From Acidobacteria bacterium Mor1 (GTDB lineage Bacteria > Acidobacteriota > Polarisedimenticolia > Polarisedimenticolales > Polarisedimenticolaceae): a stretch of 64,000 nucleotides of DNA. A program made the translations under genes and the position numbers. This document shows positions 4,899 to 54,460 of the stretch, one piece after another. A model generated the notes under the pieces. The model was given only the letters and a program-made list of their open reading frames with translations. It was not told the origin of the DNA and did no database searches. The DNA lies in the NCBI GenBank assembly GCA_001664505.1, contig CP011806.1, positions 2,391,138 to 2,455,137 of the forward strand, read 5' to 3'. Within the stretch, counting starts at the first letter, position 1. The number at the start of each line of letters is the position of its first letter.

Positions 4899-6437
4899 CT
4901 ACGGCACGAGAATCGGCTGAGACAGGAAGAAGCAGACGGGATCGTCCGGATCACTTACGCTGCAGTCGGCCGCCGGGTCGGTCTTGAGCGCGAAGAACAT
5001 CGACGGCTGGGTCGGCGACAACTGAATGAGATCGCCGCCGCCGGTGATTGTTATCCCGGCGAGGTTACCCTGCTCCAGATCCGCGATTTGTTGTGGGCTC
5101 AACATCAACCGGTGAAAGTTGTTGCCGACGCGCAGATACGCGCTATCCAACAGAGTCCCGGTGGGCAGCCGAGAAGACTGAGACGTGTCGACGAAGAGGT
5201 CGGTGCTCCAGGGCCCCCCACCTCCGTTGTCTTGCTCGTCTCCGGTGCAGGGCAAACAAGGGTCCGCCTCGGGGGTCGGCCCCACCAGTTTGGTCCAGGC
5301 TGCCCAGCCGGGTAGGTCCGGTTGGTTCTGAGGCGGCGCGTACTCGGTTCCCGGTGAAAAGAAGCTACTCGCCCAGCAGGTGTCGCTGTAGCCTCCGGCC
5401 AACCCCTCCATGATCTCCCCGAACTCGGGGTGACAGGGACCCACCAAGGACCAATCGAGCCCCAGGCGGTAGCAGTTGTGCGGCGCCCAGTGCAGTGGAC
5501 GCCAGCGGCCGACCGAAGCCGGGTCGATCGCCGGGTCATGGTGGCGTGCATGGGCGATCATTCCGGAGGCGAGACTCGTGGAATAAGACGAACCACTGGC
5601 CAACGCCGTCGCGTCGTCGAGGCATAGCGAATTGCCCGGAAACAGCGCGTCGTAGCTTGCTGGAGATTCCCATGCGGGACGCATCAGCCCGTCTCGGATC
5701 ATGCGAGTGGTGTCGACCATCGAAGCGGCTACCACCATGTCGATCGAGGCGGGAAACAACAAATCTCGCTGGTTCCCCGCAGCCGCTACGACAACGGCGC
5801 CACTGCTGCCCGGCCCATCGGTCAGGTGCTCGATAACCCGGGTGAGATGACACGCGATCGAATCGACCGCACAGGTTTGCCCCGAAACCGGATCGCCTGC
5901 GATCGAGGCGCGCCCGAAGCTCATATTGATGGCGAGGGGGTACGTCCCGGCTCGATTGTCGACGCTCTCCGCCACGGCACACAACCGGGCAAGGACGTGG
6001 AAATCCGAAACGACACTCCCGAGCGGCGCCAGGTCGTTGGTGTCCAACCTCTTGCGAACGACGTCGACACCGCTCGGCACCATACGCGAGTGCATCTCGG
6101 TGGTGCTGGAGCCGTGATCGCCCTTGAAATCGAGAACCAGGGTCCAGGGCGACGGAGTCGTGGGCAACGCCGAGGCAAAGATCGACATCTCCAAATAGGA
6201 GTTCGTCGGCGGCGGCGGATAGATCTGGGCGGTCTCGGTGATCTGCGCGTTGGGCGAACAGCCTTGCGGTACGACGATGTCGCCGAAATGAAAGACTCCG
6301 AGATCCCCGCAAGGGACCTCCAAGGTCGACTGCCCACTTCGGCAGCCCTCGTCCAGTAGGGACCACGTCGTCTGCGCATCCGCGCTACTGACGCAGACCA
6401 GCATCGAGAGCAAGATCCAAGCGCATTTTCTGTTCAC
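4899..6437 (-). CDS. Exported subtilase-like (S8 family) protein, probably degenerate
   Basis: This 512-residue exported protein starts at GTG behind a strong GAGGAGG site and has a signal peptide ending near SADAQ. Three subtilisin-like landmarks are visible: a His motif HGSSTTEMHS, the core NMSFG ... VVVAAAGNQ with FPAS after it, and the Ser motif ASGSSYSTSLASGMIAHA, matching the usual GTSxAxPxxAG region. The usual Asp motif is not convincing: the nearest LVLDFKG lies only a few residues before the His motif, whereas subtilases normally have about 30 residues between Asp and His. The protein is therefore either a divergent protease or a pseudo-protease. The ~180-residue C-terminal part is unassigned. 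The gene is 22 bp after the anti-sigma-like gene and likely co-transcribed with the CHAT protease. Confidence 0.6.
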   Translation of the reverse strand: MNRKCAWILLSMLVCVSSADAQTTWSLLDEGCRSGQSTLEVPCGDLGVFHFGDIVVPQGCSPNAQITETAQIYPPPPTNSYLEMSIFASALPTTPSPWTLVLDFKGDHGSSTTEMHSRMVPSGVDVVRKRLDTNDLAPLGSVVSDFHVLARLCAVAESVDNRAGTYPLAINMSFGRASIAGDPVSGQTCAVDSIACHLTRVIEHLTDGPGSSGAVVVAAAGNQRDLLFPASIDMVVAASMVDTTRMIRDGLMRPAWESPASYDALFPGNSLCLDDATALASGSSYSTSLASGMIAHARHHDPAIDPASVGRWRPLHWAPHNCYRLGLDWSLVGPCHPEFGEIMEGLAGGYSDTCWASSFFSPGTEYAPPQNQPDLPGWAAWTKLVGPTPEADPCLPCTGDEQDNGGGGPWSTDLFVDTSQSSRLPTGTLLDSAYLRVGNNFHRLMLSPQQIADLEQGNLAGITITGGGDLIQLSPTQPSMFFALKTDPAADCSVSDPDDPVCFFLSQPILVP

Positions 6438-6459: not shown

Positions 6460-7245
6460 CTACTCGTTGTCGTGTTCTCGGTTGGAAAGCGGCCGAGCTC
6501 GCAGGGTGAAGGTCTTGCGATACGCTGCGATGTGCGACTCCTCGCGCAGGTGATCCAAGAGCGCCTTCCCGGAAAGGCCGTCGGGAATCACCATCGAGGG
6601 TTGCAATCGCTCGGCGGGAGCCACGAGGACAAACAGCGAGTACTCCCCCGGCTGCGACCCGACGAACCGCGACGCCTCACCGCGGAACATGGCGCTATCG
6701 CGAGTGACCCTTCTTTCGATACCGAGCTGGCCGTCCAGCCGGACGAGGCTCCGGCCACTGCGGCTGTAGAGCCCGAAATCGACCCTCTGCGAAAGCCCCT
6801 CCTCCGCCGCCACATCGACCCGCAGGAGCGTGTCCGGAAACGCCTCGGACTCTGAGGCTGCCGACCGGACCTCGGCGAGACCTCCAAGGCTCACGGCGAA
6901 CTGACCGGGTGTCCAGACGTCCTGGTCGGCAGTGCGTGACACCCACAGCCCCACTAGCACGAGTGCACCGATCAGAGCCGCCGCAACCAAAGCCGGACCG
7001 GAGGAGGCGATCCTCCGTGACCGATGGGAGCCGGGCTGCGGGTCCCGGATTCCCGACAACTCCGCCAGGCGCCGGCGCCCTTCGGCACTGGCCGCCAACA
7101 AGTTCTCGATACGCTCCCGCTCGACATCGTCACAACTTCCCCGATGAAACGCCTCTAGATCCTCGTCGCTGAGGGCGACGTCGTCCGGGGCCGGATCGAA
7201 GCGCGCCGACTCCCAAAGCATTCTCTCCAGCTCCCGTTTCTTCAT
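6460..7245 (-). CDS. Membrane anti-sigma-like protein without zinc motif
   Basis: The start is taken at 7245, where the ATG overlaps the stop of the CHAT gene (ATGA); frames opening further upstream would overlap that gene and lack support. The 261-residue product has an N-terminal cytoplasmic helix-rich part (LSDEDLEAFHRGSCDDVERERIENLL...) like the anti-sigma domain. It has only one His and one Cys where HxxxCxxC would be expected, so it is a zinc-less variant. One transmembrane segment follows (ALVAAALIGALVLVGLWV, near residue 110). The exported remainder of ~130 residues is unassigned and contains SGRSLVRLDGQ and PGEYSLFVLVAP. Its place beside an ECF sigma gene suggests that it tethers that sigma factor at the membrane. 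This is inferred from architecture and context. Confidence 0.6.
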   Translation of the reverse strand: MKKRELERMLWESARFDPAPDDVALSDEDLEAFHRGSCDDVERERIENLLAASAEGRRRLAELSGIRDPQPGSHRSRRIASSGPALVAAALIGALVLVGLWVSRTADQDVWTPGQFAVSLGGLAEVRSAASESEAFPDTLLRVDVAAEEGLSQRVDFGLYSRSGRSLVRLDGQLGIERRVTRDSAMFRGEASRFVGSQPGEYSLFVLVAPAERLQPSMVIPDGLSGKALLDHLREESHIAAYRKTFTLRARPLSNREHDNE

Positions 7246-10001: not shown

Positions 10002-10612
10002 CGTTCCAGCGCCCGATTGAGTGCGAGTTTGAGGTTGTACGTGACCTTGCGGGACCACCCGGTCAGGGTTGAAATCTCCTCCGGTGTGTATCCGTCCACG
10101 TAACGCAGGCGATAGTAGAGGTAGATGCGCCCTCCCTTTCTCTGAATGCACTGGGCCAGTCGTTCGAGCATAGCTCGATCAACGCCTTGAGACTCGGGAT
10201 CCTCGTCCGGCGTCCCCAACTCGTATTCCGGGTGCAGAATCTGAGGAAGACGGGCCTTCGACCGGCGGCGATTCGCAGTGAGGCCACAGGCGATGTTCCA
10301 CAGCATCCGCTCAACCCGGGCGGCGGTGATCTCGCCTCCGCCCTTGTCGAGTAGCGCTCGGAACACCTGGGCATCGCGCTGCAGCGCACTCACGAAGGTG
10401 TCCTGCAACAGGTCGTCCGGATCGAGCCAGCGAGCCCTGCCATAGCGGCCCAGGATACGACGGTAGATTCGCGGAGCGAACTGCTCGTACAGCCAGGCCT
10501 TGGCCCGCTCGCTCCCGGCGACGATCGCCCGAAGTGACTCGGCAACCGACCCGGAGCCGCTGTGCCCCTCAGTGTCGCCAAGCTCCGAGGGCGCCTGCTT
10601 GTCCTGTTTCAT
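9977..10612 (-). CDS. ECF-type RNA polymerase sigma factor (module A)
   Basis: This 211-residue product has sigma region 2 (WLYEQFAPRIYRRIL ... LDPDDLLQDTFVSALQ, with the DDLxQ core) and a C-terminal region 4 helix-turn-helix (LRYVDGYTPEEISTLTGWSRKVTYNLK). It lacks regions 1.1 and 3, as ECF factors do. ATG 10612 is the best start, although the preceding bases contain no good Shine-Dalgarno site; a TATATT hexamer (minus strand, 10627-10622) lies 9 bases before it, so the mRNA may be nearly leaderless. It heads the CHAT / anti-sigma-like / subtilase / HzsA-like set and probably directs transcription of that set. Residue spacing is typical and no truncation is seen. Confidence 0.85.
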   Translation of the reverse strand: MKQDKQAPSELGDTEGHSGSGSVAESLRAIVAGSERAKAWLYEQFAPRIYRRILGRYGRARWLDPDDLLQDTFVSALQRDAQVFRALLDKGGGEITAARVERMLWNIACGLTANRRRSKARLPQILHPEYELGTPDEDPESQGVDRAMLERLAQCIQRKGGRIYLYYRLRYVDGYTPEEISTLTGWSRKVTYNLKLALNRALERCSQQLKL

Positions 10613-10805
10613 CCGATTCGGAATATACCGCGTCCCGCGGTTCAGCGGGTCCACTGCGACGCGACGGAGGCACGACACCCTCAGCCCTGAGGCGCCGCCG
10701 AGAAATCGACTCTGCGCGTGAATCGGTGTAACGCTCATCCTCCCGCCGGGACCTGTCTCCCGAATCCAACAACAGCCGCCGCCGGCGGCGCACAGGAGAC
10801 CCCCG

Positions 10806-34663: not shown

Positions 34664-35386
34664 TTGCAAGAGCGGTTCAGTTCTGGGAGTGTGATCGGGC
34701 AGACCTTCTCGGTCTACTTCGCCAATTTCGTCCCGTTCAACCTGATTTGCGGCGTGGTCCTGGCCCCGGCGCTGATTCTCGAGACCATGGCGATCCTGCG
34801 AGAAAACGAGACTATCGGCGGCGGCGACCTCTATAGCGCGGTCGCCTCGCTGCTCCAGATTTTCCTGGCCCCGCTCGTCCAGGCCTCCCTGACCTACGGC
34901 GTGTTCCAGCACATCCGCAACAAAGAGGTGACCATTGGCGACTGCCTCGGCAACGGACTGAAGCGCATGTTCCCGGTGCTGGGAGTCGTCATCCTGGTCG
35001 GCCTGGCCACCACCGTCGGCTTCATCCTCTGCATCATCCCCGGCATTCTCGCCTCGGTCATTCTCGCCTGCGCGGTGCCCGCCGCAGTCATCGAACGCCC
35101 CGGAGTCTTCGGCGCACTGACCCGCAGTCAGGAGCTGACCGACGGACACCGCTGGACCGTCTTCGGCGTCATCTTCGGCGTCGGCATCATCAACATCGTT
35201 CTGGTTTTCTCCCTCGGGCTGATCGCGGGACTGATGTCCCTCGTTTGGGGCATGATCATCGCAACGATCTTCGGGGTGATTGTGGGTACCGCACTACAAG
35301 CCACAGCCCCCACATTGATCTACTACCACCTTCGCAAGGCCAAAGAATCGATCGATGTCGAGGAGATTGCCGCGGTATTCGACTAG
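34664..35386 (+). CDS. Multi-span membrane protein at the head of the MoxR cluster
   Basis: This 240-residue protein has about six membrane segments (FVPFNLICGVVLAPALIL, LGVVILVGLATTVGFILCII, VFGVIFGVGIINIVLVFSLG and others) and a conserved-looking PGVFGALTRSQELTDGHRW loop. Its layout resembles the glycerophosphodiester-phosphodiesterase membrane domain/DUF975-like group. TTG 34664 is preferred because a strong GAGGAGG site lies 9 bases upstream; the in-frame ATG at 34625 overlaps a TATGAT box and lacks a ribosome-binding site. It is 13 bp before the DUF4129 gene and is probably the first gene of the seven-gene operon. Confidence 0.65.
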   Translation: MQERFSSGSVIGQTFSVYFANFVPFNLICGVVLAPALILETMAILRENETIGGGDLYSAVASLLQIFLAPLVQASLTYGVFQHIRNKEVTIGDCLGNGLKRMFPVLGVVILVGLATTVGFILCIIPGILASVILACAVPAAVIERPGVFGALTRSQELTDGHRWTVFGVIFGVGIINIVLVFSLGLIAGLMSLVWGMIIATIFGVIVGTALQATAPTLIYYHLRKAKESIDVEEIAAVFD

Positions 35387-35399
35387 GGGCGTCCCGGGG

Positions 35400-36038
35400 A
35401 TGCGGAAGCTCGCACTGCTCGTGGCCGTCGGGATCGCGGCTGCGGCATCCGTCGTGCTGGTCGCACAGGAACCCGAACCTGCGCTCGCTCCATCGGACGC
35501 AGCCCGCGAGGCGCTCCAGGCGGACCGCTATCAGACGGAGTTGCCCGTCGAGGAAACCCCTCAAGCCCCGCGCCGCGGTTTCGGTGGCGGTTTGGCCACA
35601 ATACTGTTGTGGACCCTCACCGCCGTAGGCTTCGTCTTGCTGGCCTATTGGCTTGCTCAAGAATTGGTCTTCGGCCGCGCCGGCGCCGCTCAACGCGATG
35701 CCGAAACCGCGGCGGGGCGCGGCGGGGAAACCGACCCTCGGCAACGTGTTGCGGAAGCGGAGAGGCTGGCGCAACTCGGTCGCTTCGACGAGGCCATCCA
35801 CCAGCTCCTGCTCGCCGGCATTCAAGTCGCTTCGAAAGTGGGTATCGAGTCGCTGGCACCCTCTCGGACCAGCCGTGAGTTGTTGCGCCGCCTACCCCTC
35901 GAGGATCGCCGGCGCGAAGCTTTCGGCCTGTTGGTGCGCCAGGTCGAAGTCTCACTGTTCGGCGGCCGTGCGGTAGATCTTGACGACTACACCCGTTGCC
36001 GCGAGAGCTTCGACGTGCTGGCCGGCGAGGTGGTCTGA
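35400..36038 (+). CDS. DUF4129 domain membrane protein
   Basis: This 212-residue protein has an N-terminal signal or anchor (MRKLALLVAVGIAAAASVVLVAQ), a periplasmic stretch of ~50 residues and a transmembrane helix (GLATILLWTLTAVGFVLLAYWLA). A cytoplasmic helical domain follows that matches DUF4129: ERLAQLGRFDEAIHQLLLAGI ... PSRTSRELLRRL ... FGLLVRQVEVSLFGGR. This domain regularly accompanies MoxR ATPases and DUF58 proteins. ATG 35400 is chosen because it begins the signal segment; an in-frame ATG at 35355 would overlap the preceding gene by 32 bp. Its stop overlaps the start of the DUF4350 gene (TGATG). Confidence 0.78.
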   Translation: MRKLALLVAVGIAAAASVVLVAQEPEPALAPSDAAREALQADRYQTELPVEETPQAPRRGFGGGLATILLWTLTAVGFVLLAYWLAQELVFGRAGAAQRDAETAAGRGGETDPRQRVAEAERLAQLGRFDEAIHQLLLAGIQVASKVGIESLAPSRTSRELLRRLPLEDRRREAFGLLVRQVEVSLFGGRAVDLDDYTRCRESFDVLAGEVV

Positions 36039-37285
36039 TGGCGCAGGCTTCCTCGTTCGGCGGCCGCGCCCTCGGCTGGCTGATCGGCCTGGCGGGAGTC
36101 TCGTTGTTCCTGGCGCTTCTGTTGACCGCCTTCGCCGATGATCTCGGCGACCCCGAGAGCAGCGGACCGAACGGCTTCAGCCGCAGCGCCCTCGGCCATC
36201 GGGCGTTCCTCGGATTCCTGGAGCGAATCGGGATGGAGGTCTCGCTACGCAGGACCGACCGGATCTCGATGTTGTCGCCGGACACGCTCGCCCTGGCACT
36301 GGACCCACCGCCACGCTCGACGGAAACCAACGACGACGACCCGTTCCAGCGGCTGATCGACGGCGCCGAGGCTGCACAGGCCCCGGTCCTGATCACCGCC
36401 CCGAAGTGGGCGCCGGCGCAACTGAGTACCAACCCCCGCTTCCTGCGCCGAGTCGCGCTGATACCGGCAAACATCGCGACCTCCACGCTCTCCCCTTTCG
36501 ACGAGGATCTGGCCGTGATCCGGCGTCGCACGCCGACAACCTGCAAAGCCGGAGATCGGGCCTTTCGAGTGGAGTTGCGTTCGGCACAGCTCTTCATGCA
36601 GAGCGACGAGTTCGAGGTTCTCGCGGAATGCGACGGCTACCCGCTGGCCGTCCTGCTCGACGAAGCCTGGGGCGAGGGGCCGGTCTACGCCCTCAGCGAT
36701 CCTGACCTGCTCAACAATCACGGCCTGGGTCGAGCCGAACACGCCGATCTGCTTCACGACCTCCTCGTCCGCCAGATCGGACTCTCGACGATCATCGTCG
36801 ACGAGACCATTCACGGCTTTCAACGCAGCGACAGCCTGCTCGAGGAGATGGTCCGCTTCCCTCTGGCCTTTGTCACGATCCACGTCAGCATCCTGCTCGG
36901 GCTTCTCGTCTGGGGTGGCTTCCGCCGCTTCGGCAAGCCACGCAAGGTCGGGGAAGCCCTGGACCAGGGCAAACGGATCCTGGTCGACAACACCGCCAAC
37001 CTGCTGACCCTGGCGGCCGAGCATGGCGAGTCCCTTCGCCTTTATCATCGCTACTGTATGCGCGACGTTGCGCGCTACTACTACCTCGCGCCCGACCTCC
37101 CCCACGACCAGGTGGTCGCGCGACTCGCCGACATCGGCGGGTCGCGCGGAGTCACCGAGTCGATCGAACGGCTGGATCGGGAGATTCGCGAGTTGATCAA
37201 GACCCGGCAACGGAAGCCCGACCGCACGGTGCGGTTGGGAGCCCGGCTGGATCAGTGGAGAAACGAGATGACCGATGTCGGTTGA
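36038..37285 (+). CDS. DUF4350 domain membrane protein
   Basis: This 415-residue protein has an N-terminal membrane helix ([22 protein letters not shown]) and an exported Rossmann-like domain of the DUF4350 type: [18 protein letters not shown], a GAT-like stretch around VLITAPKW, and [17 protein letters not shown] second membrane helix follows ([20 protein letters not shown]), then a cytoplasmic helical tail. It is the standard partner of DUF4129, MoxR and DUF58 in this cluster and may bind a ligand in the periplasm. The function is not established for the family. The stop overlaps the MoxR start by 11 bp. Confidence 0.78.
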
Positions 37286-38231
37286 GGAAGTACGCGAAAC
37301 CTGGGAATCGCTCCGCGACCAGATCGGTCGCGTGGTGATCGGACAGGAACAAGCCGTACGGCTGCTGACGGTCGCGCTGCTCTGCGAAGGGCATGCGCTG
37401 CTCGAGGGCGTTCCCGGCACCGCCAAGACGCTGCTCGCCCGCTGCTTCGCCGCCAGCCTGCGCCTGGAGTTCAAGCGAATTCAGTTCACGCCGGATCTGA
37501 TGCCGGGGGACATTCTCGGCACCAACCTTTTCGATTTTCAATCGAACCAGTTCAACTTGACCAAGGGGCCGATTTTCACCGAGTTCCTGCTGGCCGACGA
37601 GATCAACCGTACGCCGCCCAAGACCCAGTCCGCGCTGCTCGAGGCGATGCAGGAGCGAACCGTGACCATCGACGGCAAGAGCTACCCGCTCTCCGGCGGG
37701 TTCATGGTCGTCGCCACTCAGAACCCCGTCGAACACGAAGGCACCTACCCGCTGCCCGAAGCCCAACTCGACCGGTTCCTGCTGAAGATGCTGATCGACT
37801 ATCCCGAACGAGACCAGGAACGCGAGATGCTGCGCGTTCACGGGCATCGCTCGGCGATGGCACGCATCGACGATTTCAACCTCCAACCGGTCGCAAGCCT
37901 CGAGTTCCTCGACCGGGCGCGGCGATTCGTGGCGGAGCTCCGGCTGGCCGACGAGATGATCGAGTACGTGGTTGAACTGGTGCGTGCCACGAGAAACCAC
38001 CCGGCGCTTCAGGTCGGCGCCTCGCCCCGATCCTGCAACATGCTTGCCGCCGCCGCCCGATCCAGCGCTGTGCTCGACGGGCGAGACTTCGTGATTCCCG
38101 ATGACGTAAAGGAGTTGTTCCTACCCGTGATGCGCCACCGTGTCCTGACCTCTCCGGGTGCCGAAGTTGAGGGCCGCTCGACCGATCAGGTTCTCGAGCA
38201 GATCCTCGAACAGGTTCCGGCGCCACGCTGA
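37275..38231 (+). CDS. MoxR-family AAA+ ATPase
   Basis: This 318-residue AAA+ ATPase is of the MoxR type. Walker A is EGVPGTAKT (residue ~45), Walker B is [23 protein letters not shown], sensor 1 is [24 protein letters not shown], and the C-terminal lid includes [19 protein letters not shown]. Length and all motifs are normal. MoxR proteins act as chaperones for maturation of protein complexes, often with a DUF58/VWA-type partner encoded next door, as here. The gene overlaps the upstream one and is followed by the DUF58 gene after 7 bp. Confidence 0.92.
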
Positions 38232-38238
38232 GTCCACG

Positions 38239-39546
38239 GTGCACCCGACTCAAAGAGCCATCGGAACGTTCGCTGCGGGTCTCGCCATCTCGCTGATTCC
38301 GGCGTTGGGCTTCACCCGGGCCTGGCCGGTGGTGATCGTCGTTTGGGGTGCCTACCTGCTGGTGCTGGGTATCGACGGGGTCCGCTGCCCGCGACGCCGC
38401 AACCTGCGGTGGGAGGTCCAGAGGCCCGAGGCGCTCTACGTCGGGCAGTTCGCGGCCTTCGGCCTTGAGCTATCGACCGTATCCGGCCCGAACGTCCCGA
38501 TGCGAATGGCCGTCGATCTCTCCGACAACCTCACCCCACACAGAGACGTGAGCGGGCTGGCCACGCGGGAAACGAGCATCCTCGAGTACCCCCTGGAACC
38601 GGTGCGGCGAGGAACGGCGACTCTCGAGACCCTGTGGCTTCGGAGCACTAGCCCCCTGGGCCTCTGGCATCGCACCTTCACCGAAACCCTCGACCTCGAA
38701 ATACCGGTCTTGCCCAACACCCCGCTGGTCCGTTCAACGGCGCTGCGCTTCTTCGCCGACCGGACCTTTCGCGCGGGCCTCAAGGTCGAACGTTACCGCG
38801 GAGACGGCACCGAGTTCGAATCCCTCAAGGACTTTCTCACTGGAGACGATCACCGCACCATCGATTGGAAGCAGTCTGCGCGGCACCGCCGGCTCTACTG
38901 CCGTCACAATCGCGCGGAGCGCAACCATCAGATCGTCATGGCGATCGATACGGGCGTCCTGATGAGTGAGCGGCTTGCGGGCCTGGCCAAGCTGGACCAC
39001 GCGATCAACGGCGCACTGACCCTGGCCTACGTCGGACTCGCCGGCGGCGACCGGGTCGGGATCTTCAGCTTCGGCGCGACCCTCGGCCCGTCGGTGGAAC
39101 CGTTGCGCGGGATGCGCTCCATGATGAGCCTCGTGCATCTGTGCGGCTCGTTGAGCTACTCCCACGAGGAGACCAACTACACCCTGGGCCTGACAACCCT
39201 GGCCCAGCGGCTACGGCGGCGTTCTCTGATCGTCCTGCTGACCGATTTCGTCGACACCGTCACCGCGGAACTCATGCTCGAGAACATTCGCCGGATGGGG
39301 CGCCGCCACCTGGTCATCTTCGCGTCGCTTCGCGACCCCCTGCTGGGGCAGGTTTCCCGCACCCACCCCGGCGACGTCGACCACCTGAATCGAGCCGTCG
39401 TGGCCGGCAACCTGCTGCAGGATCGCGAGGTCGTCCACCGCCGGCTTCAGCGCCTCGGTGTCCACACCCTGGATGTAGAGCCGGCCGGCATCACCGCGAA
39501 CCTGATCAACCAATACCTCGATATCAAACGCCGAGAGCTTGTCTGA
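38239..39546 (+). CDS. DUF58 (VWA-like) protein
   Basis: This 435-residue protein has two N-terminal membrane helices (TFAAGLAISLIPALGFT and WPVVIVVWGAYLLVLGI) and the DUF58 signature FESLKDFLTGDDHRTIDWKQSARHRRL near residue 200. A VWA-like domain follows with a MIDAS-type start IVMAIDTG and later LIVLLTDFVDT. DUF58 proteins are the usual clients or adaptors of MoxR ATPases. GTG 38239 is chosen because it follows the MoxR stop by 7 bp and gives a membrane-leading N-terminus. The stop overlaps the ATG of the SpoIIM-like gene (TGATG). Confidence 0.85.
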   Translation: MHPTQRAIGTFAAGLAISLIPALGFTRAWPVVIVVWGAYLLVLGIDGVRCPRRRNLRWEVQRPEALYVGQFAAFGLELSTVSGPNVPMRMAVDLSDNLTPHRDVSGLATRETSILEYPLEPVRRGTATLETLWLRSTSPLGLWHRTFTETLDLEIPVLPNTPLVRSTALRFFADRTFRAGLKVERYRGDGTEFESLKDFLTGDDHRTIDWKQSARHRRLYCRHNRAERNHQIVMAIDTGVLMSERLAGLAKLDHAINGALTLAYVGLAGGDRVGIFSFGATLGPSVEPLRGMRSMMSLVHLCGSLSYSHEETNYTLGLTTLAQRLRRRSLIVLLTDFVDTVTAELMLENIRRMGRRHLVIFASLRDPLLGQVSRTHPGDVDHLNRAVVAGNLLQDREVVHRRLQRLGVHTLDVEPAGITANLINQYLDIKRRELV

Positions 39547-40553
39547 TGGAGCAATACCGCCTCAAGTCATCGGAGTTCCGCAACGAGCGGGAAGACTCCT
39601 GGCGCGCGCTGGAGAAGCTGGTTCAGCGCGCGGAAACCCACGGACTGGGCTCGTTGTCCCATGAGCAACTCAGCACGCTGCCGTCGCTCTACCGCGGACT
39701 TCTCGGATCGCTGTCGGTTGCGCGCGCGATCAGCCTCGACAAGAACCTGCTGGACTACCTGACGAATCTGGCGAGCCGGGCCCATGTGGTCGTCTACGCC
39801 AACAAGCGGCGGCCGAGCGAAGCGGTCGTCGACTTTCTACTCCGCGGATTCCCTCGCGCGGTCCGGCGACACGTGGTCCATCTGGCGGCCGCCCTGCTTT
39901 TCCTGACGGCCGGCGTGGCCTGCGGCCACCTGATGACGATCCATGACATGGAGCGCTACTACGCGTTCGTTCCCGATACGATGGCACAGGGCCGCACCCC
40001 TGCGGCGACCACCGAGTCGCTACGCGAGGGGCTTTACTCCGGTCGCGAAGACCTGGGCGAAGACCTGCAGTACTTCGCCAGCGTATTGTTCACCCACAAC
40101 TCGAAGGTCGGCATTCTCTGTTTCACCCTCGGTTTCGCCGCCGGCGTCCCGGTCGTGCTGCTGCTGTTCTACAACGGCCTGGTGTTGGGTGCCATGTCGG
40201 CACTGTTCACCAGCCGTGGACTCGGCATGGATTTCTGGGCCTGGGTGATGCCCCACGGCGTCACCGAACTCCTGGCTGTGGCGCTGTGCGGGATGGCGGG
40301 TCTGGTCTTCGGTACAACCCTCGTTTTCCCCGGAGAACGCTCGAGGCTGGATAATCTCGCCCACAACGGCCATCACGCGGCAACCGCCGTGCTCGGAGCG
40401 GTCGCGATGCTGTTCATCGCGGCGTTGATCGAGGGGTTCTTTCGCCAGCTCGTACAGTCGATCCCCATCCGCTGGGCGGTGACCCTGACCACGCTCGCGC
40501 TGTGGACGTTCTACTTCGGTTGGATCGGACGGGAGCACCCGAATGAAGGGTGA
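39546..40553 (+). CDS. SpoIIM-like (stage II sporulation protein M family) membrane protein
   Basis: This 335-residue protein has a cytoplasmic helical N-terminus (SSEFRNEREDSWRALEKLVQRAE) and then a SpoIIM-type membrane domain of about five spans (VVHLAAALLFLTAGVACGHLM, NSKVGILCFTLGFAAGVPVVLLLFYNGLVLGAM, MPHGVTELLAVALCGMAGLVFGTTLVFPG). The HGVTELLA motif is characteristic. Nothing in the window suggests a sporulating organism. SpoIIM-like proteins commonly pair with RDD and MoxR-cluster genes. It overlaps the RDD gene by 11 bp. Confidence 0.85.
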   Translation: MEQYRLKSSEFRNEREDSWRALEKLVQRAETHGLGSLSHEQLSTLPSLYRGLLGSLSVARAISLDKNLLDYLTNLASRAHVVVYANKRRPSEAVVDFLLRGFPRAVRRHVVHLAAALLFLTAGVACGHLMTIHDMERYYAFVPDTMAQGRTPAATTESLREGLYSGREDLGEDLQYFASVLFTHNSKVGILCFTLGFAAGVPVVLLLFYNGLVLGAMSALFTSRGLGMDFWAWVMPHGVTELLAVALCGMAGLVFGTTLVFPGERSRLDNLAHNGHHAATAVLGAVAMLFIAALIEGFFRQLVQSIPIRWAVTLTTLALWTFYFGWIGREHPNEG

Positions 40554-41433
40554 GACCATCCGCATTCGCAGGTTGAACACCCCGGAGGGCGTGAAGCTGC
40601 CCTTCGAGGTCGCCAGCGCCGGTGACCGGTTCGCGGCCCTGACCCTCGACCTGTTGATCGTACACCTCGTCGTGATCGCAGTCGTGATCGTCGCGGCGCT
40701 GATCGGGTCGCCGGGGGTCAAGTCGATCGGCCTGCTGGTCAGCTTCTTCATCCGCAATCTCTACTTCGTCTACTTCGAGATGCGCTGGCACGGATCCACC
40801 CCCGGCAAACGCAAGTTCGGCTTGCGGGTAATCTCGCGCCAGGGCGGCCCGCTGTCGGCCGAGGCGATTTTTGCCCGCAACCTGACTCGCGAGCTGGAGG
40901 TCTTCCTCCCGATGTCCGCCCTGTTCGCGCCGGGCGAGCTCTTGCCCGGCCTGCCCATGTGGGGCGCTCTGCTGGGAACGATCTGGCTTTTCGCCTTCGG
41001 CCTGCTACCGCTGTTCAACAAGGACCGCCTGAGGGTCGGCGACCTGATCGCCGGCACCCTGGTGGTGCTGATGCCCGCCGCCAAACTCCTGCCGGACATG
41101 ACCGACACCACGGCCGTCCAGATTCCCCAGGAGATGGATCTGACATTCAGCGAAGCCCAGCTCAGCCTCTACGGCAGCCAGGAGCTGCAGGTCTTGGAAG
41201 ACCTGATGCGAAAAGAGCGCGGACGCAGTTCCGAAGTACTCGACGCGGTCGCCGAGAAGATCAAGATCAAGGTCGACTGGACCCGTAGCCGCTGGGATGT
41301 GGACACCTGGGAGTTCCTCTCTGCCTTCTATCGCGCACAGCGCGCCCACCTCGAGCACAAGATGTTGTTCGGGGAACGGCGGACCAAGAAGAAGCAGGGA
41401 ATCCTCGGACAAACCGGCCCCGAGGACACCTAG
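40543..41433 (+). CDS. RDD-family membrane protein
   Basis: This 296-residue protein has the RDD domain in its first ~170 residues: VASAGDRFAALTLDLLIVHLVV, FFIRNLYFVYFEMRWHGSTPGKRKFGLRVI, then GDLIAGTLVVLM. The three named residues Arg-Asp-Asp are present in AGDRFAALTLDLL. About four membrane helices are expected. The C-terminal ~120 residues are soluble and helical. It closes the MoxR/DUF58/SpoIIM operon and is followed by a short palindrome rather than a clear terminator. Confidence 0.87.
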   Translation: MKGETIRIRRLNTPEGVKLPFEVASAGDRFAALTLDLLIVHLVVIAVVIVAALIGSPGVKSIGLLVSFFIRNLYFVYFEMRWHGSTPGKRKFGLRVISRQGGPLSAEAIFARNLTRELEVFLPMSALFAPGELLPGLPMWGALLGTIWLFAFGLLPLFNKDRLRVGDLIAGTLVVLMPAAKLLPDMTDTTAVQIPQEMDLTFSEAQLSLYGSQELQVLEDLMRKERGRSSEVLDAVAEKIKIKVDWTRSRWDVDTWEFLSAFYRAQRAHLEHKMLFGERRTKKKQGILGQTGPEDT

Positions 41434-47408: not shown

Positions 47409-47954
47409 ATGCCCCAGGACCCTCCCCGCACGCCCTCCGAGAAAAGCCTCGATTTCGAGGCCATTCGCGGAGAAGTCGTGCGCGCCGTGCGGGCCCACTG
47501 CCCGCCCTCGATGGTGCCCCAGGCCGATGACCTGGCCCAGGAGGTGCTGGTCCGGCTGCTGGAAAGACAGAAAAAGGGTGAAGTCCCCGAGGTCCGGCAT
47601 GCGTCTTACTGGCGTAGGGCTGCCTACAACGCACTGATCGACGAGCTGCGCCGGCGCCGACGCCGGCGAGAGGAGCTGTTCGATGATCAGCCTCCGGGCG
47701 GGGACATCCCCGCCACGCCATCTCAGGATCCCGATCGCCGGGCGGAGAGCGTTGAGCTCGCCGAGGCGATCGAGGACTGCCTTTCCCGGCTCACCTCCGG
47801 GCGCCGCGTCGCGGTGTTCCTGCATCTCCAGGGCCACACCACCGCTGAGGTGGCCAAGATCCTCGACTGGGCGATCAAGCGTGTGGGGAGCGCGCTGTTT
47901 CGCGGGATGCGCGATCTACGCGCCTGTCTCGCGTCGAAGGGGTGGACCGCATGA
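47409..47954 (+). CDS. ECF-type RNA polymerase sigma factor (module B)
   Basis: This 181-residue sigma factor has region 2 (VPQADDLAQEVLVRLLERQ ... SYWRRAAYNALIDELRRRRRRREEL) and region 4 (EDCLSRLTSGRRVAVFLHLQ, TAEVAKILDWAIKRVGSALFRGM). It is shorter than the module A sigma factor and clearly distinct in sequence. A GATAAT hexamer ends 6 bases before the ATG, so the transcript may be leaderless, though CGAGGG could act as a weak ribosome site. The ATG of the anti-sigma gene overlaps its stop. It presumably drives its own operon and an unknown regulon. Confidence 0.85.
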   Translation: MPQDPPRTPSEKSLDFEAIRGEVVRAVRAHCPPSMVPQADDLAQEVLVRLLERQKKGEVPEVRHASYWRRAAYNALIDELRRRRRRREELFDDQPPGGDIPATPSQDPDRRAESVELAEAIEDCLSRLTSGRRVAVFLHLQGHTTAEVAKILDWAIKRVGSALFRGMRDLRACLASKGWTA

Positions 47955-48598
47955 GTCTCGATGACCGCAGCCTGCGGGAGGCTTGGCGTGCCCGCGAGCC
48001 CGGCCCCGGCGCGAGTTGCCCCGACTCCGACTCGGTCTGGCAGGCGGCGAGCGGCGAACTCCCTCCGGCAGAGGCCGCCCGCATCGCGGAACATGCCTCC
48101 GCCTGCGCCGCCTGCGCCGAGGCGTGGCGGCTGGCCCGGGCGATGCACGGCCCGGTCGCAGCCGACGAGGCCAGCGCGGGCGTCGCTGCCGAACCGGGCT
48201 TCCCGTGGCGGCCGCTGCTGGCAGTCGCGGCCCTGCTGCTGTTGACCTTCGCCGGTTGGAGCCTGCTGCGGCAGAGCGAACCGGGCCCCGCTCCGGTGCT
48301 GCGCGAGACGGTCGTAGAGATTCGATCCTCACTCGGTGACGACACCCCCCTGCCCCGGGGCGCCTTCGTCCTGCGCTGGGAGGGCACGCCGGAAGGGAGT
48401 ATCTACGCCGTTGAGGTGGGCACACCGGACCTACGCAGTCTCGACCGGGCCGCGGGCCTGGTCGATGCCGAATACCGGGTACCGGTGGAACGACTCGAGT
48501 CGGTCGAGGCGGGCGGCAGCGTTGCCTGGCGGGTCGAGGCGACCCTCCCCGACGGCCGGCAGATCACCTCGGTGACCTTCATCAACCGGGTGGAGTGA
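47951..48598 (+). CDS. Zinc-type membrane anti-sigma factor (module B)
   Basis: This 215-residue anti-sigma factor starts at ATG 47951, overlapping the sigma stop. It has a cytoplasmic ZAS motif HASACAACAEAW (HxxxCxxC) near residue 55, one membrane helix (PLLAVAALLLLTFAGWSLL, near residue 95) and an exported domain of ~100 residues (PRGAFVLRWEGTPEGSIYAVEV ... SVAWRVEATLPDGRQIT) that is FN3-like. The ZAS motif marks it as the binder of the adjacent sigma factor. It overlaps the CHAT gene start by GTGA. The exported domain probably senses or is cut by something outside the membrane. Confidence 0.85.
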   Translation: MSLDDRSLREAWRAREPGPGASCPDSDSVWQAASGELPPAEAARIAEHASACAACAEAWRLARAMHGPVAADEASAGVAAEPGFPWRPLLAVAALLLLTFAGWSLLRQSEPGPAPVLRETVVEIRSSLGDDTPLPRGAFVLRWEGTPEGSIYAVEVGTPDLRSLDRAAGLVDAEYRVPVERLESVEAGGSVAWRVEATLPDGRQITSVTFINRVE

Positions 48599-51441
48599 GG
48601 GTGCGGGCCCTGGGCGGCATCGTGGCGGCTCTGGGTTTCCTGTGGGGACTCGCGACCCATGCCACGGCGGCGCCGCGGAACGAAGCTACCGGCGCGGCCG
48701 AAGCTGCGCAGTCGTGCAGTCAGCCACCGTCGCTGTTTCCGGCGAGCCCCTTCGACTGCGAGTGTTTCCGGGTCACCGAGATCGATCGCAGCAACCCGAA
48801 CCGCGCCGCCCTCGAAGGAGCACGCGCCGAACGCCCGGACGATGACTGGCTGCTTGCCGCCCATGCGGCCTACCACACCGAACGCCCCGGACCGAGCGGC
48901 CTGGAACTGGGCAGCGAAGCGCTGCAGCGTTTCGTCGCGGCCGGCGACGCCCGGGGCGAAGCCTACGTCCGAACCCTGCTGGCGCGGATCCACCAGCGCT
49001 TCCGCCGTAGCGATGCCTCCAACCGGGAGATCGCCGCTCTCGACACCTTGCTCGACTCGGTAAACGATCCGGTGGTCCACGCCCGCTACGCCCTGGCCCG
49101 GGTCCGCGCCGCCGAGGAGGCGGGCGAATTCGATCGCGCCTACCTGACCGCCCGCCGCGCGACGGTGTCCGGCACCTTCGCCGGACTCCCTCCGTCGACC
49201 CGTTCGGCGCTGTACGGTTCCGCGGCGAGCATGGCGTTGCGGCTCAATCGATTCTCCGAGGCGCTGGCGCTCAACCGGCGGCAGGAGGAAGCCTGCCGCG
49301 ACCTGCCCGGTTGCGAAACGCGCACCCGGCGCTTCCGGGCGATGATCGCCCGGGGCATGGCAACTCATGGACTCGCCTCGAAGGAACAGGCGGCGAACCT
49401 GACTCTGGCTGCCTATGAGGACGCGCGGAAGGCAGGGAGCCGCTGGTCGGAACTGCTGCAGGTTTGCGAGGCCGGGCACTGGCTCGAACCACCCGAAAGC
49501 CTGGACTACTTCGACCGCTGCGCGAACCTCGCTGACGAACTGAAGTGCGAGGACATCAAGCTGGTCGCCGAGATGATGCACACCGTCGGCCACGGGCGGC
49601 TCGATCCTGCGCGGCTACCAGAGGCCATCGACCGCATGAAGCAGATCGCCGTCGAGATGCGCGAACTCGGCAGCGGCGGCGATCAGATCGCGGCCTACGG
49701 CTTTCTGGCCCAGCTTTACCAGCACGCCGGCGATGAGGACGCCGCCGTCGAGGCGCTCTCCCGGGCGATCTACCTGTCCGAGCTGGATCAGGACCGCCAG
49801 TGGGACGCGGGCAGCCGGATCGGCACCCTCGGCGCCGACGCCAATCACTTCCATCGCCTGGCCCGGCTGTTGCTCGAAAAGCAGGGCTCGGACGACGCCG
49901 ATCTTGAACGGGCCTATCAGGTAGTGGAGCGCTTTCGACGCCGGGCAGTGATGGTCGAGCGGGCGCGGGCGGACGGCGAAGGCGCCGGCGCCGGCGCGGA
50001 CCGGCCGCAGACATCACAACAGCGGACCGGATTGCGGCAGCTCCGGCGGGATATTCAGGCCATCCAGCAGCGGCTACCGGCGGCAGCTCCGACGGAGCGA
50101 GGCGAGCTGTTGCGCGAGCTCGACGCCCTGGAGCTGGACGAGCGCAGCGCCCTGCGGGAACTCGCACGGCAGGATCCCGGCCAGACCCACTTCGAGTACC
50201 CGCAGATCCCCGATCTCGAGAGCGTGCGCGCCGCCCTGGAACCGGGCGAGGCGTTGATCAGCTACCAACTCCCCCCCTCCTCCGAAGGTTCCTCCTGGGC
50301 CTGGGTGATCGATCGTGCCTCCGTGCGCACGGTGCAACTGCCGGTCGAGGGGATCGAGCGAACCCTCGGCCTCTACCTGGGATTCGTCTCCCGCCGGGAC
50401 GGCGCGGAAACGGCTGCCTCCGATGCACTATCCGCCGCGCTGATCGCGCCGGTCCTGCGGCACGTTCCGATGGGGGTCAGCCGGCTCACCGTGATTCCCG
50501 ACGGCCGGCTTCATGGTCTGCCCTTCGCCGCGCTCCCGATCGAGCCCGGCGGCCCGCCGCTGGCACTGACCTACAGCCTCTCCTTCGCCGGATCCATCGG
50601 CGAGCGTGTGCGGCAATCGGATGAAGCCCTGCTGCCCCGGGCGGTACTCGGCATCGCCGGCGCCGGACGGCCCGGCCGGCAGGACGCCATGCGCGGGGAA
50701 GCCGACCCGATCTGGCCCGAGTCGACCTGGACGCCGTTGGCCTGGGCGCAACGGGAGGTCGCCCGGGTGGTCACCCGGCTCGGCGGAGACAGCCTGCTGC
50801 TCGATGCCGACTCTCCACCGTCGGCCTGGGAAGGGCTCGACCTGCGAAGGTTCGGCGTGTTGCACCTGGCCAGCCACGCCGTGTCGAACCATGAGCACCC
50901 GCAACGCTCTGCCGTGTTGATCCCGGCGCGCTCGCCGGAGGACGACGGACTGCTGCAGCCCCGGGAGATCGCCCACCTGGACCTCGACGACACCCTGGTG
51001 GTGTTGGCCGCCTGCAGTAGCGCCGGGGGTCCCGGAGTGCGTGGCGGGGGCCCGCTGAGCCTCGCCCGCTCCTTCCTGGCCGCGGGAGCGCCGGCAGTGA
51101 TCGGAACGCTGTGGCCGGTACGCGACGACGAAGCGGCGCGCTTCTCCGAGTTGTTCTACGACCGCTTCGCCGCCGGTGAGCCGGCCCAGAAAGCGCTGAA
51201 CGAAACCCAGCAGGCGCTGCTGGGCCAGGACGTTCCCGCCGCCGACTGGGCCGCCTTCGTGTTGATCGGAGACGGTCAGGTGCGCCTGGCCGGCGAGGAT
51301 GGCGGCGAAGGCGATCGAGGCACCGAGGACAAGCGGGGCGAGGCCGCCTCGTTCGGCCGCTTTCCGCCCTGGCTTCCGGGAACGCTGATCGCAGCGGCGC
51401 TGCTGATCGCCATCTGGGGCCTGCTCCGGCGGCGCCGCTAG
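48595..51441 (+). CDS. TPR-CHAT domain protease with membrane anchor (module B)
   Basis: This 948-residue protein starts at GTG 48595, which overlaps the anti-sigma stop (GTG 48601 is an alternative). It has a signal peptide (GGIVAALGFLWGLATHATAA), TPR-like helices from about residue 70 to 480, then a CHAT domain. The dyad is intact: His761 in LHLASHAVS and Cys807 in VVLAACSSAGG, followed by SLARSFLAAGAPAVIGTLWPVRDDEAA and DWAAFVLIGDG. A C-terminal membrane helix (LPGTLIAAALLIAIWGLL) and RRRR tail orient the protease outward, with the tail in the cytoplasm. It is the module B counterpart of the lipoprotein CHAT protein at 7242-10001. Cleavage of the anti-sigma exported domain is a testable idea. 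Confidence 0.85.
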   Translation: MRVRALGGIVAALGFLWGLATHATAAPRNEATGAAEAAQSCSQPPSLFPASPFDCECFRVTEIDRSNPNRAALEGARAERPDDDWLLAAHAAYHTERPGPSGLELGSEALQRFVAAGDARGEAYVRTLLARIHQRFRRSDASNREIAALDTLLDSVNDPVVHARYALARVRAAEEAGEFDRAYLTARRATVSGTFAGLPPSTRSALYGSAASMALRLNRFSEALALNRRQEEACRDLPGCETRTRRFRAMIARGMATHGLASKEQAANLTLAAYEDARKAGSRWSELLQVCEAGHWLEPPESLDYFDRCANLADELKCEDIKLVAEMMHTVGHGRLDPARLPEAIDRMKQIAVEMRELGSGGDQIAAYGFLAQLYQHAGDEDAAVEALSRAIYLSELDQDRQWDAGSRIGTLGADANHFHRLARLLLEKQGSDDADLERAYQVVERFRRRAVMVERARADGEGAGAGADRPQTSQQRTGLRQLRRDIQAIQQRLPAAAPTERGELLRELDALELDERSALRELARQDPGQTHFEYPQIPDLESVRAALEPGEALISYQLPPSSEGSSWAWVIDRASVRTVQLPVEGIERTLGLYLGFVSRRDGAETAASDALSAALIAPVLRHVPMGVSRLTVIPDGRLHGLPFAALPIEPGGPPLALTYSLSFAGSIGERVRQSDEALLPRAVLGIAGAGRPGRQDAMRGEADPIWPESTWTPLAWAQREVARVVTRLGGDSLLLDADSPPSAWEGLDLRRFGVLHLASHAVSNHEHPQRSAVLIPARSPEDDGLLQPREIAHLDLDDTLVVLAACSSAGGPGVRGGGPLSLARSFLAAGAPAVIGTLWPVRDDEAARFSELFYDRFAAGEPAQKALNETQQALLGQDVPAADWAAFVLIGDGQVRLAGEDGGEGDRGTEDKRGEAASFGRFPPWLPGTLIAAALLIAIWGLLRRRR

Positions 51442-51559: not shown

Positions 51560-54460
51560 ATGGCTACCCGCCTCGCCGCAGTTCTCTGCGGTTTGCTACT
51601 CAGCACCACCCTCGCCGGAGCGCAGACGACCATTCCCGGCGGCACCATCTCCACCGACACGACCTGGGATCTCGCAGGTTCCCCCTACACCCTCACCGGC
51701 GCGGTGACGATCCAGGGAACCGACGGCCCCGACGGCATCACCACCCTGACCATCGAAGGGGGTGTCGAGGTCCGGATCAACGACTTCCACGAGCTGATCG
51801 TCGGCACCAGCGAACCGGGGGCTCTAATCGCCGACGGCGATACAGGCCCGAGCCCGGGGCCGATCCTGATCACCAGCTCCGACGCCGTGCCGGTCGGCTC
51901 GCAACATGGCGGTGTGTGGTTCCGGGGCCAGGCAGCCGCATCGGTGATGCGCAACGTGATCGTCGAGCACGGCGGCCGCGGCGGGTTCCCCGGCGGGGTC
52001 GTGTTGGCCACGACCACCGGCGAGAGCTTCATCTTCGACCGCCTGACGGTGCGCAACATCGACAACGGCAACAACGGCCTCAACCTCGACGGTGGCGTCT
52101 CGACGGTGACCCAGGCGAGCATCAGCAACGTCAACGGTTACCACCTGCGCCTGGACGGCGGCAGCGGCTCGATCTCCGACTCGTCCCTTTCCAACATCTA
52201 CCGGGATCCCTTCGGCGGCGCCGACTTCACCCTCCAGGGCAACACCTTCACCGACTGGGGCGGCACGACCTCGAACATCAGCGCGGCCATGGCAGCCCGC
52301 CTGATCCTCGACAACACGGTGACCTCCGTCGCCGGCGGAGTCACCGATGTACAGCAGGGAACCATCGCCGTCGACGGCACCTTCGGTCCGGCCGCCGGCA
52401 CCTACGTGGTCGGCGGAGACATCACGGTGCGCGGAACCAATGGGCCCGACGGGGTCACTACCCTGACCCTGCAGCCCGGGACCCGCATCGAGATGGGCAT
52501 TGCCGACAGTCTGGTGATCGGCGGCTTCAGCGGCGATCCGGGACGTCTGGAGAGCCTGGGTGGCGGCGCGCCGGTGGTGATCACCAACGATTTCGGCACG
52601 CCGAACACCTCCTGGTGGGACGACATCGAGATCGGCAATACCGGGTCGGCTGCCCTGTTCAACATGGAGATCGACTCGGCAAACACCTGCATCGACGTGC
52701 AGGGAGGCACCCTCGAGGCGGGAGACATCGACCTGGCGCGCTGCTTCACCGGAATGCGGCTCTCCAGCGCCACGACACCTTCGGTAATCGACGGCATCCG
52801 CTGCACGGCGGTTTCCGACTGCATCGCGTCGAGCAGCTCAACCCCGACGATTCGCAACAGCGACCTGATCGGCACCACCGACGGACTGAGCAACAACACG
52901 CCCTTCGACGTGGTCGACGCCATCGGTAACTGGTGGGGCTCGCCCGACGGTCCCTCGGGGGCCGGACCGGGCAGCGGTTCGGAGGTCAGTACCGGCGTGC
53001 TGTTCGACCCGTGGCTCACGGCGCCCGCCGACGACTTCGACGCGATACCCGCCGACGACGGCGACGGACAGACCGACCCCTGCACCGGCGGCAACACCGT
53101 CGACTGCGACGACAACTGCGTTCGCGTCGCGAATCCTTCCCAGGCCGACGAAGACGGCGACGGCATCGGCGACGCCTGCGAATCCCGCGCGACACTGACC
53201 GTCTCTTCGGATGCCTTCGACGCGGCGGACTTCGCAACGATTCAAGAGGCGATCGACGCCGCGCCCGACGGCGCCACGATCCGCATCCACCCGGGGCTCG
53301 GCAGCTACAACCAGGATCTGCGGCTCGATCGGGCGCTCACCCTGACCCTCGAAGGCACCTCGACCCAGCCCCCGGTGATCATCGACGATCGCTTCACCAC
53401 GACGCTGCTGATGCGGGACAGCTCGGGAGCGCCCCACGTGGTGCGCAACCTGACCTTCCGCGGTGACGGGCGCACCATCGATGCCTACGTCGACTCGATC
53501 TTCGAGAACCTGATCTTCGACGACAGCACCACCGGTGTGGGGATCGGGCTGCGTTCGGGCACCCATCAGATCAGCGACGTGCTGATGGACGGGGTCAGCA
53601 CGGGCATGGTCATCGACGACCCTGCCGTGGCCCATGTGGAGCGCACCCAGATGATCGACGGCATCCAGGGCATCCTGCTGCAGGACGGTGAGGTGAACCT
53701 CAAGAGTTCGACCATCGCCGGCAACTCCGGTCTGGGAATCCTGATCCAGGCCTTCGACTTCGATTCCGTCCTGACCATGGAGTACGTCACTCTCGCCGAG
53801 AACGGCGGCATCGGGCTGGACAACCGGCCGGCGGTACCGCTTTCGATCGAAGACTCGATCATCTTCGGCAACCTGGGCGGCGACCTGTCCCAGGTGCCCT
53901 GCACCGATCTGACCGACAGCAACGTCGGCGACCCGGCCTGCTCCGGAATCAACGGCAACATCTCGTCGGATCCCCTGCTCGACGCCGGATACCGGCTGAC
54001 CTCGGGCTCACCCTGCATCGATCTCGGTGACGACGGGGCGGCCTTCGACGGCACCCCGCAACGGGATGTCGACGGCGAAGCCCGTGTGGCCGACGGGGAC
54101 GAGGACGGAACCGCCCGGGCCGACTGCGGGGCCGACGAGTACCTCGCCGCGCCGCTGATCGCCGAGGTCACCGGCGTTCGCTGGCTCGATGACATCACTT
54201 TGGTCTGGGGCAGCCTCGCCGGAGCGGTGGAATACCACCTCTACGGTGACGACCTGTCGGCGCTCACGGTGGGTTACGCCGGCTCCTGCCTCGACAGTCT
54301 CGACGGAAACCGCACCGACACCCAGGCCACCCTCGTCGAACTACCGGCCGTCGGCGCCGGACGCTTCTATCTGGTCACCGGCGAGAACGGCGCCGGCGAC
54401 GAGTCGCGGCCGGGATCCGGCTCCGCCGTACAACGGATCAACGCGACCCCTTGCCCCTGA
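51560..54460 (+). CDS. Exported right-handed beta-helix protein with C-terminal module
   Basis: This 966-residue exported protein has a signal peptide (MATRLAAVLCGLLLSTTLAGAQ) and two related beta-rich halves: VTIQGTDGPDGITTLTIEGG near residue 50 and ITVRGTNGPDGVTTLTLQPG near residue 290, each followed by helix-like rungs. A calcium-type acidic stretch (DDNCVRVANPSQADEDGDG) of the thrombospondin-3 kind lies near residue 520. A second parallel beta-helix block (FATIQEAIDAAPDGATIRIHPG, HQISDVLMDGVSTGMVIDD and others) follows. The last ~100 residues are the shared module ending NATPCP. It follows module B by 119 bp on the same strand and is probably a target of that sigma factor or part of its operon. 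A terminator follows. Confidence 0.8.
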   Translation: MATRLAAVLCGLLLSTTLAGAQTTIPGGTISTDTTWDLAGSPYTLTGAVTIQGTDGPDGITTLTIEGGVEVRINDFHELIVGTSEPGALIADGDTGPSPGPILITSSDAVPVGSQHGGVWFRGQAAASVMRNVIVEHGGRGGFPGGVVLATTTGESFIFDRLTVRNIDNGNNGLNLDGGVSTVTQASISNVNGYHLRLDGGSGSISDSSLSNIYRDPFGGADFTLQGNTFTDWGGTTSNISAAMAARLILDNTVTSVAGGVTDVQQGTIAVDGTFGPAAGTYVVGGDITVRGTNGPDGVTTLTLQPGTRIEMGIADSLVIGGFSGDPGRLESLGGGAPVVITNDFGTPNTSWWDDIEIGNTGSAALFNMEIDSANTCIDVQGGTLEAGDIDLARCFTGMRLSSATTPSVIDGIRCTAVSDCIASSSSTPTIRNSDLIGTTDGLSNNTPFDVVDAIGNWWGSPDGPSGAGPGSGSEVSTGVLFDPWLTAPADDFDAIPADDGDGQTDPCTGGNTVDCDDNCVRVANPSQADEDGDGIGDACESRATLTVSSDAFDAADFATIQEAIDAAPDGATIRIHPGLGSYNQDLRLDRALTLTLEGTSTQPPVIIDDRFTTTLLMRDSSGAPHVVRNLTFRGDGRTIDAYVDSIFENLIFDDSTTGVGIGLRSGTHQISDVLMDGVSTGMVIDDPAVAHVERTQMIDGIQGILLQDGEVNLKSSTIAGNSGLGILIQAFDFDSVLTMEYVTLAENGGIGLDNRPAVPLSIEDSIIFGNLGGDLSQVPCTDLTDSNVGDPACSGINGNISSDPLLDAGYRLTSGSPCIDLGDDGAAFDGTPQRDVDGEARVADGDEDGTARADCGADEYLAAPLIAEVTGVRWLDDITLVWGSLAGAVEYHLYGDDLSALTVGYAGSCLDSLDGNRTDTQATLVELPAVGAGRFYLVTGENGAGDESRPGSGSAVQRINATPCP

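Follow-up and report, generated by a model that had tools for sequence, protein, structure and literature searches.

DdvA is the anti-sigma factor of the extracytoplasmic function (ECF) sigma factor DdvS, which becomes active once DdvA has been inactivated, and the signal acting on DdvA is unknown (PMC4374960). In Craspase, the protease Csx29, made of tetratricopeptide repeats (TPRs) and a CHAT domain, cleaves the sigma inhibitor Csx30 (PMC10028731), and a review mentions that CHAT and subtilase genes neighbour ECF54 sigma factors, where an anti-sigma factor is supposed not to be involved (PMC8999054). Here, we describe a cassette, called module B, that bears likenesses to each of these systems. 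It is encoded in a stretch of 64,000 nucleotides, hereafter the window, of the genome of Acidobacteria bacterium Mor1 (Acidobacteriota; assembly GCA_001664505.1, contig CP011806.1, positions 2,391,138 to 2,455,137 of the forward strand), and consists of genes for an ECF sigma factor, an anti-sigma factor, and a TPR-CHAT protein. We regard it as a split, exported, and heavily duplicated relative of DdvS/DdvA, which works like Csx29/Csx30/CASP-sigma but is not that system. Most of what is known of CHAT proteases concerns immunity and the CRISPR-guided Craspase, and we know of no evolutionary account of why a CHAT protease controls a sigma factor in the latter.

The genes of module B (Table 1) were checked base by base, and the family profiles score above their cut-offs. 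This agrees with an earlier note on the window, which had read there, from the sequence, a second sigma/anti-sigma/TPR-CHAT module whose genes overlap at ATGA and GTGA and whose CHAT has His761 and Cys807. The sigma factor belongs to the ECF group, with TIGR02937 at 65.2 bits (E=5e-18; cut-off 42.9) and the profiles of regions 2 and 4 also above their curated cut-offs. Its stop codon TGA lies inside the ATGA at 47951-47954, as does the more likely start of the anti-sigma gene, ATG 47951; GTG 47942 is the alternative, from which the residues of this protein are numbered below. The anti-sigma factor is of the zinc-finger class, with a zf-HC2 match just above the Pfam cut-off (24.3 vs 22.2 bits) and a single transmembrane helix. 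Its structural model (predicted local distance difference test, pLDDT, of 84) has a helical cytoplasmic domain, the helix at residues 90-109, and a beta domain that matches fibronectin type III (FN3) modules. The GTGA at 48595-48598, like the first overlap read directly in the sequence, contains the anti-sigma stop and the CHAT start. The CHAT domain scores 171.8 bits with PF12770 (E=3e-50), above cut-off, keeps the His/Cys dyad in 19/19 aligned homologues, and has in its model (pLDDT 82) a caspase-like fold close to those of Csx29 (Z 26) and separase (Z 26, 3.0 A over 299 residues). These features make it a CHAT protein and, by prediction, a protease. Separase, the Borvo protein BovA, and Csx29 share with it the catalytic fold with the dyad; the PADLOC match to BovA covers the catalytic core only. 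To our knowledge, neither BovA nor separase has a membrane anchor or sigma/anti-sigma partners. These core matches, just weak ones, were all that PADLOC gave, and no known defence system is indicated.

For the sigma/CHAT association, a fused relative has been characterised by experiment, the myxobacterial DdvA (PDB 8ROT, 8RW5, 8RLZ): in DdvS/DdvA, as in module B, the ECF sigma gene comes first, and zf-HC2, one helix, TPRs, and CHAT are all present. However, DdvA is a single polypeptide, whereas module B divides anti-sigma factor and CHAT between two genes and proteins, the former carrying an FN3-like domain instead and the latter a signal-like N-terminus of its own and an anchor at its C-terminus. 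The fused layout was found in six two-gene operons of Myxococcus eversor and Pyxidicoccus caerfyrddinensis, in which an ECF sigma gene is followed, with a 4-base overlap, by a gene for one protein of ~990 residues. All six proteins have a zf-HC2-like N-terminus, a hydrophobic stretch behind it, and the conserved His and Cys. The member scanned with Pfam has zf-HC2 and CHAT above their cut-offs and aligns with PDB 8ROT from end to end (E=1e-134), and the order anti-sigma domain, helix, and TPR-CHAT in one chain characterises the proteins of loci L144, L145, L147, L149, and L150. In their PDB titles, 8ROT, solved by electron cryo-microscopy, and 8RW5 are called the transmembrane anti-sigma factor DdvA; a search of the open-access literature gave no paper describing the DdvA structure.

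With Csx29/Csx30/CASP-sigma of type III-E CRISPR, module B shares the presence of a TPR-CHAT protein, a sigma inhibitor, and an ECF sigma factor in one locus, as well as the overall fold. Yet Csx29 is cytoplasmic and under RNA control by Cas7-11, whereas the CHAT protein of module B is predicted to be exported, and it scores 12.6 bits with the Csx29 model (NCBIfam NF041237), far under the cut-off of 300. No Cas7-11/gRAMP was seen in the window or in the cassette loci read, the whole genome not having been searched for it. Going by their description, the ECF54 neighbourhoods resemble the cassettes in their CHAT and subtilase genes and differ in being reported without an anti-sigma factor.

The 5.985-Mb single-contig genome that contains the window encodes 21 CHAT genes and gives ~80 sigma region-4 matches, and two families this large could simply be neighbours by coincidence. 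Yet, counting Pfam sigma matches alone, 14/21 CHAT genes have a sigma gene within 5.5 kb, against 2.96 expected, and this is reached in 0/20,000 shuffles; with the family profile, an ECF sigma factor lies within about 5 kb of 18/21. Together with matching trees, recurrence in two phyla, and fusion, this enrichment refutes coincidence, to which we leave hardly any probability, and bears out the earlier note, which had doubted chance on the strength of two instances. It had also suggested a reusable regulatory cassette. The genome has ~17 of them, two CHAT genes sharing one sigma gene, which supports the reuse; the regulatory mechanism itself is one we infer. Some of the sigma and anti-sigma genes are absent from simple gene calls and were recovered by six-frame profile searches. 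The CHAT genes without a nearby sigma gene are those of L056, L066, and L069, the one in L066 (7452-13283) encoding a protein of 1943 residues.

Sigma and CHAT genes are inherited together. Unrelated histories would have spoken against a cassette, as the earlier note had pointed out, and the trees of 43 sigma-linked CHATs and their paired sigma factors agree instead, with a Mantel rho of 0.79 between distances (0/2000 shuffles as high). The correlation is also found within the Mor1 genome alone (rho 0.74, 0/5000 shuffles as high) and within type B alone (rho 0.41, 35/5000), this being one of four lineages of cassettes whose labels require the minimum possible number of changes on both trees. 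The closest sigma factor and the closest CHAT to those of module B belong to one and the same cassette of a relative. Those of module A, the other cassette of the window, are found together in a single other type-II cassette of the Mor1 genome, so that the two modules fall in separate lineages, each co-inherited.

Type B, which includes module B, has the order sigma, anti-sigma, CHAT. Type II has four copies in this genome, including module A (6460-10678, minus strand), and the order sigma, CHAT, anti-sigma, S8-like gene. The contrasts in gene order and in membrane attachment that had been noted between the two modules, a C-terminal helix in B and a lipobox-like N-terminus in A, are correct, the true start of the module A CHAT possibly lying slightly upstream of the annotated one. 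A zinc-finger anti-sigma factor had been assigned to both, which holds for module B; the candidate of module A has no Pfam or NCBIfam family match and, by eye, no zinc-finger motif. The CHAT domain of type II is divergent (73 bits with PF12770, vs 172 for module B). The S8-like fourth gene is present in 4/4 type-II cassettes (window, L054, L067, L068) with Asp, a His-Gly pair, and the serine of GSSYS kept, by eye, at unusual spacing; its product is possibly a subtilase, divergent but active. The CHATs of type III are larger, and its order in this genome is sigma, CHAT, anti-sigma. In type IV, a gene for a YncE-like beta-propeller adjoins the CHAT or the sigma gene in 5/5 loci (L060, L061, L063, L064, L089), the propeller being a secreted protein of ~520 residues.

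Across the phylum, the type-B anti-sigma factor, the sole basis of selection, has a match in 24/247 Acidobacteriota genomes, and type-II or A-like CHATs occur in 4/247, so B occurs without A; whether the two kinds occur separately had been a question of the earlier note. The sigma gene adjoins in 27 of 30 type-B anti-sigma loci and a CHAT gene lies within 1.5 kb in 19, to which a wider reading adds three (L188, L190, L198) with CHAT a few genes downstream or divergent. Type-B cassettes are also present in M. eversor, M. qinghaiensis, and P. caerfyrddinensis, where a small secreted protein separates anti-sigma factor and CHAT. Genome contigs were scanned for CHAT relatives with a profile of five aligned members, a single-protein query having given no matches. 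The CHATs of Rhodobacterales, Sphingomonas, and betaproteobacteria had no sigma gene alongside in the sequence read, so the link to sigma factors is not general to CHAT genes. Some of these genes have recurrent contexts of their own. Alphaproteobacterial operons (L106, L109, L111, L115) combine a caspase-family-like gene (LLIGVSDYDD-like start), one or two secreted proteins, and CHAT, with no sigma gene found. In Sphingomonas (L113, L114, L118) there is a tandem pair of CHAT genes with no sigma gene nearby, and P. caerfyrddinensis has a separate expansion of about a dozen similar signal-peptide CHAT paralogues (L132-L141), nearly all without one.

Each of the 23 type-B CHATs examined starts with a signal-like segment and has a helix at its C-terminus, behind which comes a tail containing 2 to 8 basic residues and almost never acidic ones. 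From this, the protease is predicted to be periplasmic. The CHATs of types II-IV mostly have lipoprotein-like N-termini. The type-B CHAT should thus face the periplasm beside the FN3-like domain of the anti-sigma factor. The geometry expected from the fused form has the anti-sigma domain inside, the helix across the membrane, and the TPR-CHAT part outside. The linker between helix and FN3-like domain is variable except for Arg121, which is carried by 23/23 type-B anti-sigma factors, even by those without the zinc motif, and is a candidate cleavage or recognition residue.

We propose, giving it about an even chance of being right, that the CHAT of each cassette serves as a dedicated protease of the site-1 type: it would cut the anti-sigma factor of that cassette, which would then enter the general RseP route, and thereby free the partner sigma factor. 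The sigma factor would be kept inactive by the cytoplasmic zinc-finger domain of an anti-sigma factor that spans the inner membrane once and exposes its FN3-like domain in the periplasm. The C-terminal helix of the exported TPR-CHAT protein would hold it in the inner membrane, with the active site towards the FN3-like domain and the linker. The TPR solenoid of this protein, joined by a PDZ domain in one paralogue, might sense a ligand or a misassembled surface protein, upon which the dyad would make a membrane-proximal cut in the anti-sigma factor, perhaps at Arg121. RseP, as general site-2 protease, would complete the cleavage, and the released sigma factor would transcribe its targets, plausibly the adjoining genes of secreted proteins. 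Linkage, co-inheritance, dyad, topology, fusion, fold, the PDZ paralogue, RseP, Arg121, and the precedent of Csx29/Csx30 all argue for this proposal. It resembles DegS-RseP-RseA-RpoE, where a periplasmic protease releases an ECF sigma factor by cutting a one-helix anti-sigma factor, and the genome has the matching parts: one clear RseP homologue (E=1e-84) and one CHAT with a PDZ domain. The difference is that the protease is here a caspase-fold CHAT with TPRs, not a trypsin-like one, and that each sigma factor has its own. Module B falls outside the DegS type (trypsin-like plus PDZ), having a CHAT and no PDZ match in Pfam. The paralogue, a PDZ-TPR-CHAT protein (L052 6333-9749; PF17820 E=3e-7) with a signal-like N-terminus and a C-terminal helix, combines a DegS-like layout with a caspase-fold protease, and L198_7 resembles it by eye.

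Of the 43 sigma-linked CHATs, 42 keep the His and Cys, as do the fused proteins that were checked, so catalysis appears to matter. This argues against a pure scaffold, in which the TPR-CHAT would bind a ligand, touch the periplasmic domain of the anti-sigma factor, and release the sigma factor by a conformational change, any proteolysis being done by general envelope proteases. Such a sensor without cutting would fit with 8RW5 being described as a dimeric transmembrane anti-sigma factor, with the TPR-CHAT belonging to the inhibitor itself in DdvA-like fusions, and with the divergence of the type-II domain; we consider it rather unlikely.

In the reverse arrangement, an ordinary sigma/anti-sigma pair would control the CHAT as its main product, an effector exported either to process surface proteins or for attack on competitors or phage. 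In type B the CHAT gene is downstream in what is likely the same operon, type-specific secreted proteins adjoin the cassettes, and CHAT proteases occur in defence, to which the weak BovA match may be added. However, a role in output alone is made less likely by the fused proteins, in which a single chain carries the anti-sigma domain together with CHAT. The membrane anchoring, where free secretion might be expected, speaks against it too, as does the fact that type II has CHAT ahead of the anti-sigma gene, and we think it unlikely that output is the role of CHAT. The beta-helix-like protein downstream of module B is a possible target or client. Its start is of a kind (TTIPGGTISTDTTWDLAGSPY-like) common to secreted proteins (with L062_2 and L079_6) beside three type-B cassettes in two genomes. 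Downstream of three other type-B cassettes (L072, L073, L078) lie two secreted proteins that recur together; a YQGVLRDA-like start marks one of them and an NAGGxP motif the other.

Several points weigh against dedicated cleavage by the CHAT. Its action on the anti-sigma factor, be it cleavage or binding, is so far a proposal from sequence, and its topology was derived from hydropathy and motifs only. In the DdvA-like fusions the protease is part of the inhibitor, and a sensor role fits them equally well. The role of Arg121 may be structural, as the residue borders on the FN3-like domain. For some B-type anti-sigma genes, the sequence read contains no CHAT gene, and some of these loci end at contig ends. 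Finally, the best candidates for a promoter common to the sigma and beta-helix genes (window and L062) were no better than those of shuffled sequences, a comparison that neither supports nor excludes sigma autoregulation.

The literature in open access on CHAT with sigma or anti-sigma factors comprised, in our search, the Craspase papers and the sentence of the ECF54 review; the split, exported form and its expansion were not described there, which does not prove that no description exists. We tentatively suggest, as a possibility that falls short of being probable, that the cassettes represent a new class of envelope signalling, in which dedicated caspase-fold proteases are exported to act at site 1, every one paired to an anti-sigma and a sigma factor of its own, in ~17 parallel channels within one bacterium, and each type of cassette tied to a distinct kind of secreted surface protein. 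If so, DdvA would be its fused form and Craspase a cytoplasmic offshoot. Exported CHATs that sit beside anti-sigma factors, co-evolve with them, and sometimes fuse to them are a concrete candidate for the origin of the sigma link of Craspase. What inactivates anti-sigma factors of the DdvA type becomes a testable question. Split and fused forms are both present in cultured Myxococcus and Pyxidicoccus species.

Table 1. Features of modules B and A in the window (positions counted from its first nucleotide).
Feature	Position	Strand	Characteristics
Module B ECF sigma factor	47409-47954	+	181 residues; regions 2 and 4; TIGR02937, PF04542, PF08281
Module B anti-sigma factor	47951-48598	+	zf-HC2, one helix, predicted periplasmic FN3-like domain
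Codon of Arg121 (GTG-start numbering)	48302-48304	+	Linker between helix and FN3-like domain; candidate cleavage/recognition residue
Module B TPR-CHAT protein	48595-51441	+	Signal-like N-terminus, TPR solenoid, CHAT His761/Cys807, C-terminal helix, RRRR tail
Secreted beta-helix-like protein adjoining module B	51560-54460	+	Signal-like N-terminus; N-terminal segment shared with L062 and L079 proteins
Module A sigma factor	9977-10678	-	TIGR02937 E=4e-8, under curated cut-off; PF04542 E=0.0015
Module A lipoprotein-like CHAT protein	7242-9953	-	PF12770 73 bits; lipobox-like VTGC
Module A anti-sigma candidate	6460-7245	-	One helix; assigned by its place in the cassette and by alignment to three type-II paralogues
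Module A fourth gene, S8-like secreted protein	4899-6404	-	PF00082 32 bits

Two other regions of the window deserve mention. At 34691-41433, genes for a MoxR AAA ATPase (37275-38231) and a DUF58 protein (38239-39546) lie amid membrane-protein genes of the same strand, and 1612-4710 on the minus strand encodes a protein of 1032 residues with a 38.7-bit match to the middle domain of hydrazine synthase alpha (PF18582).

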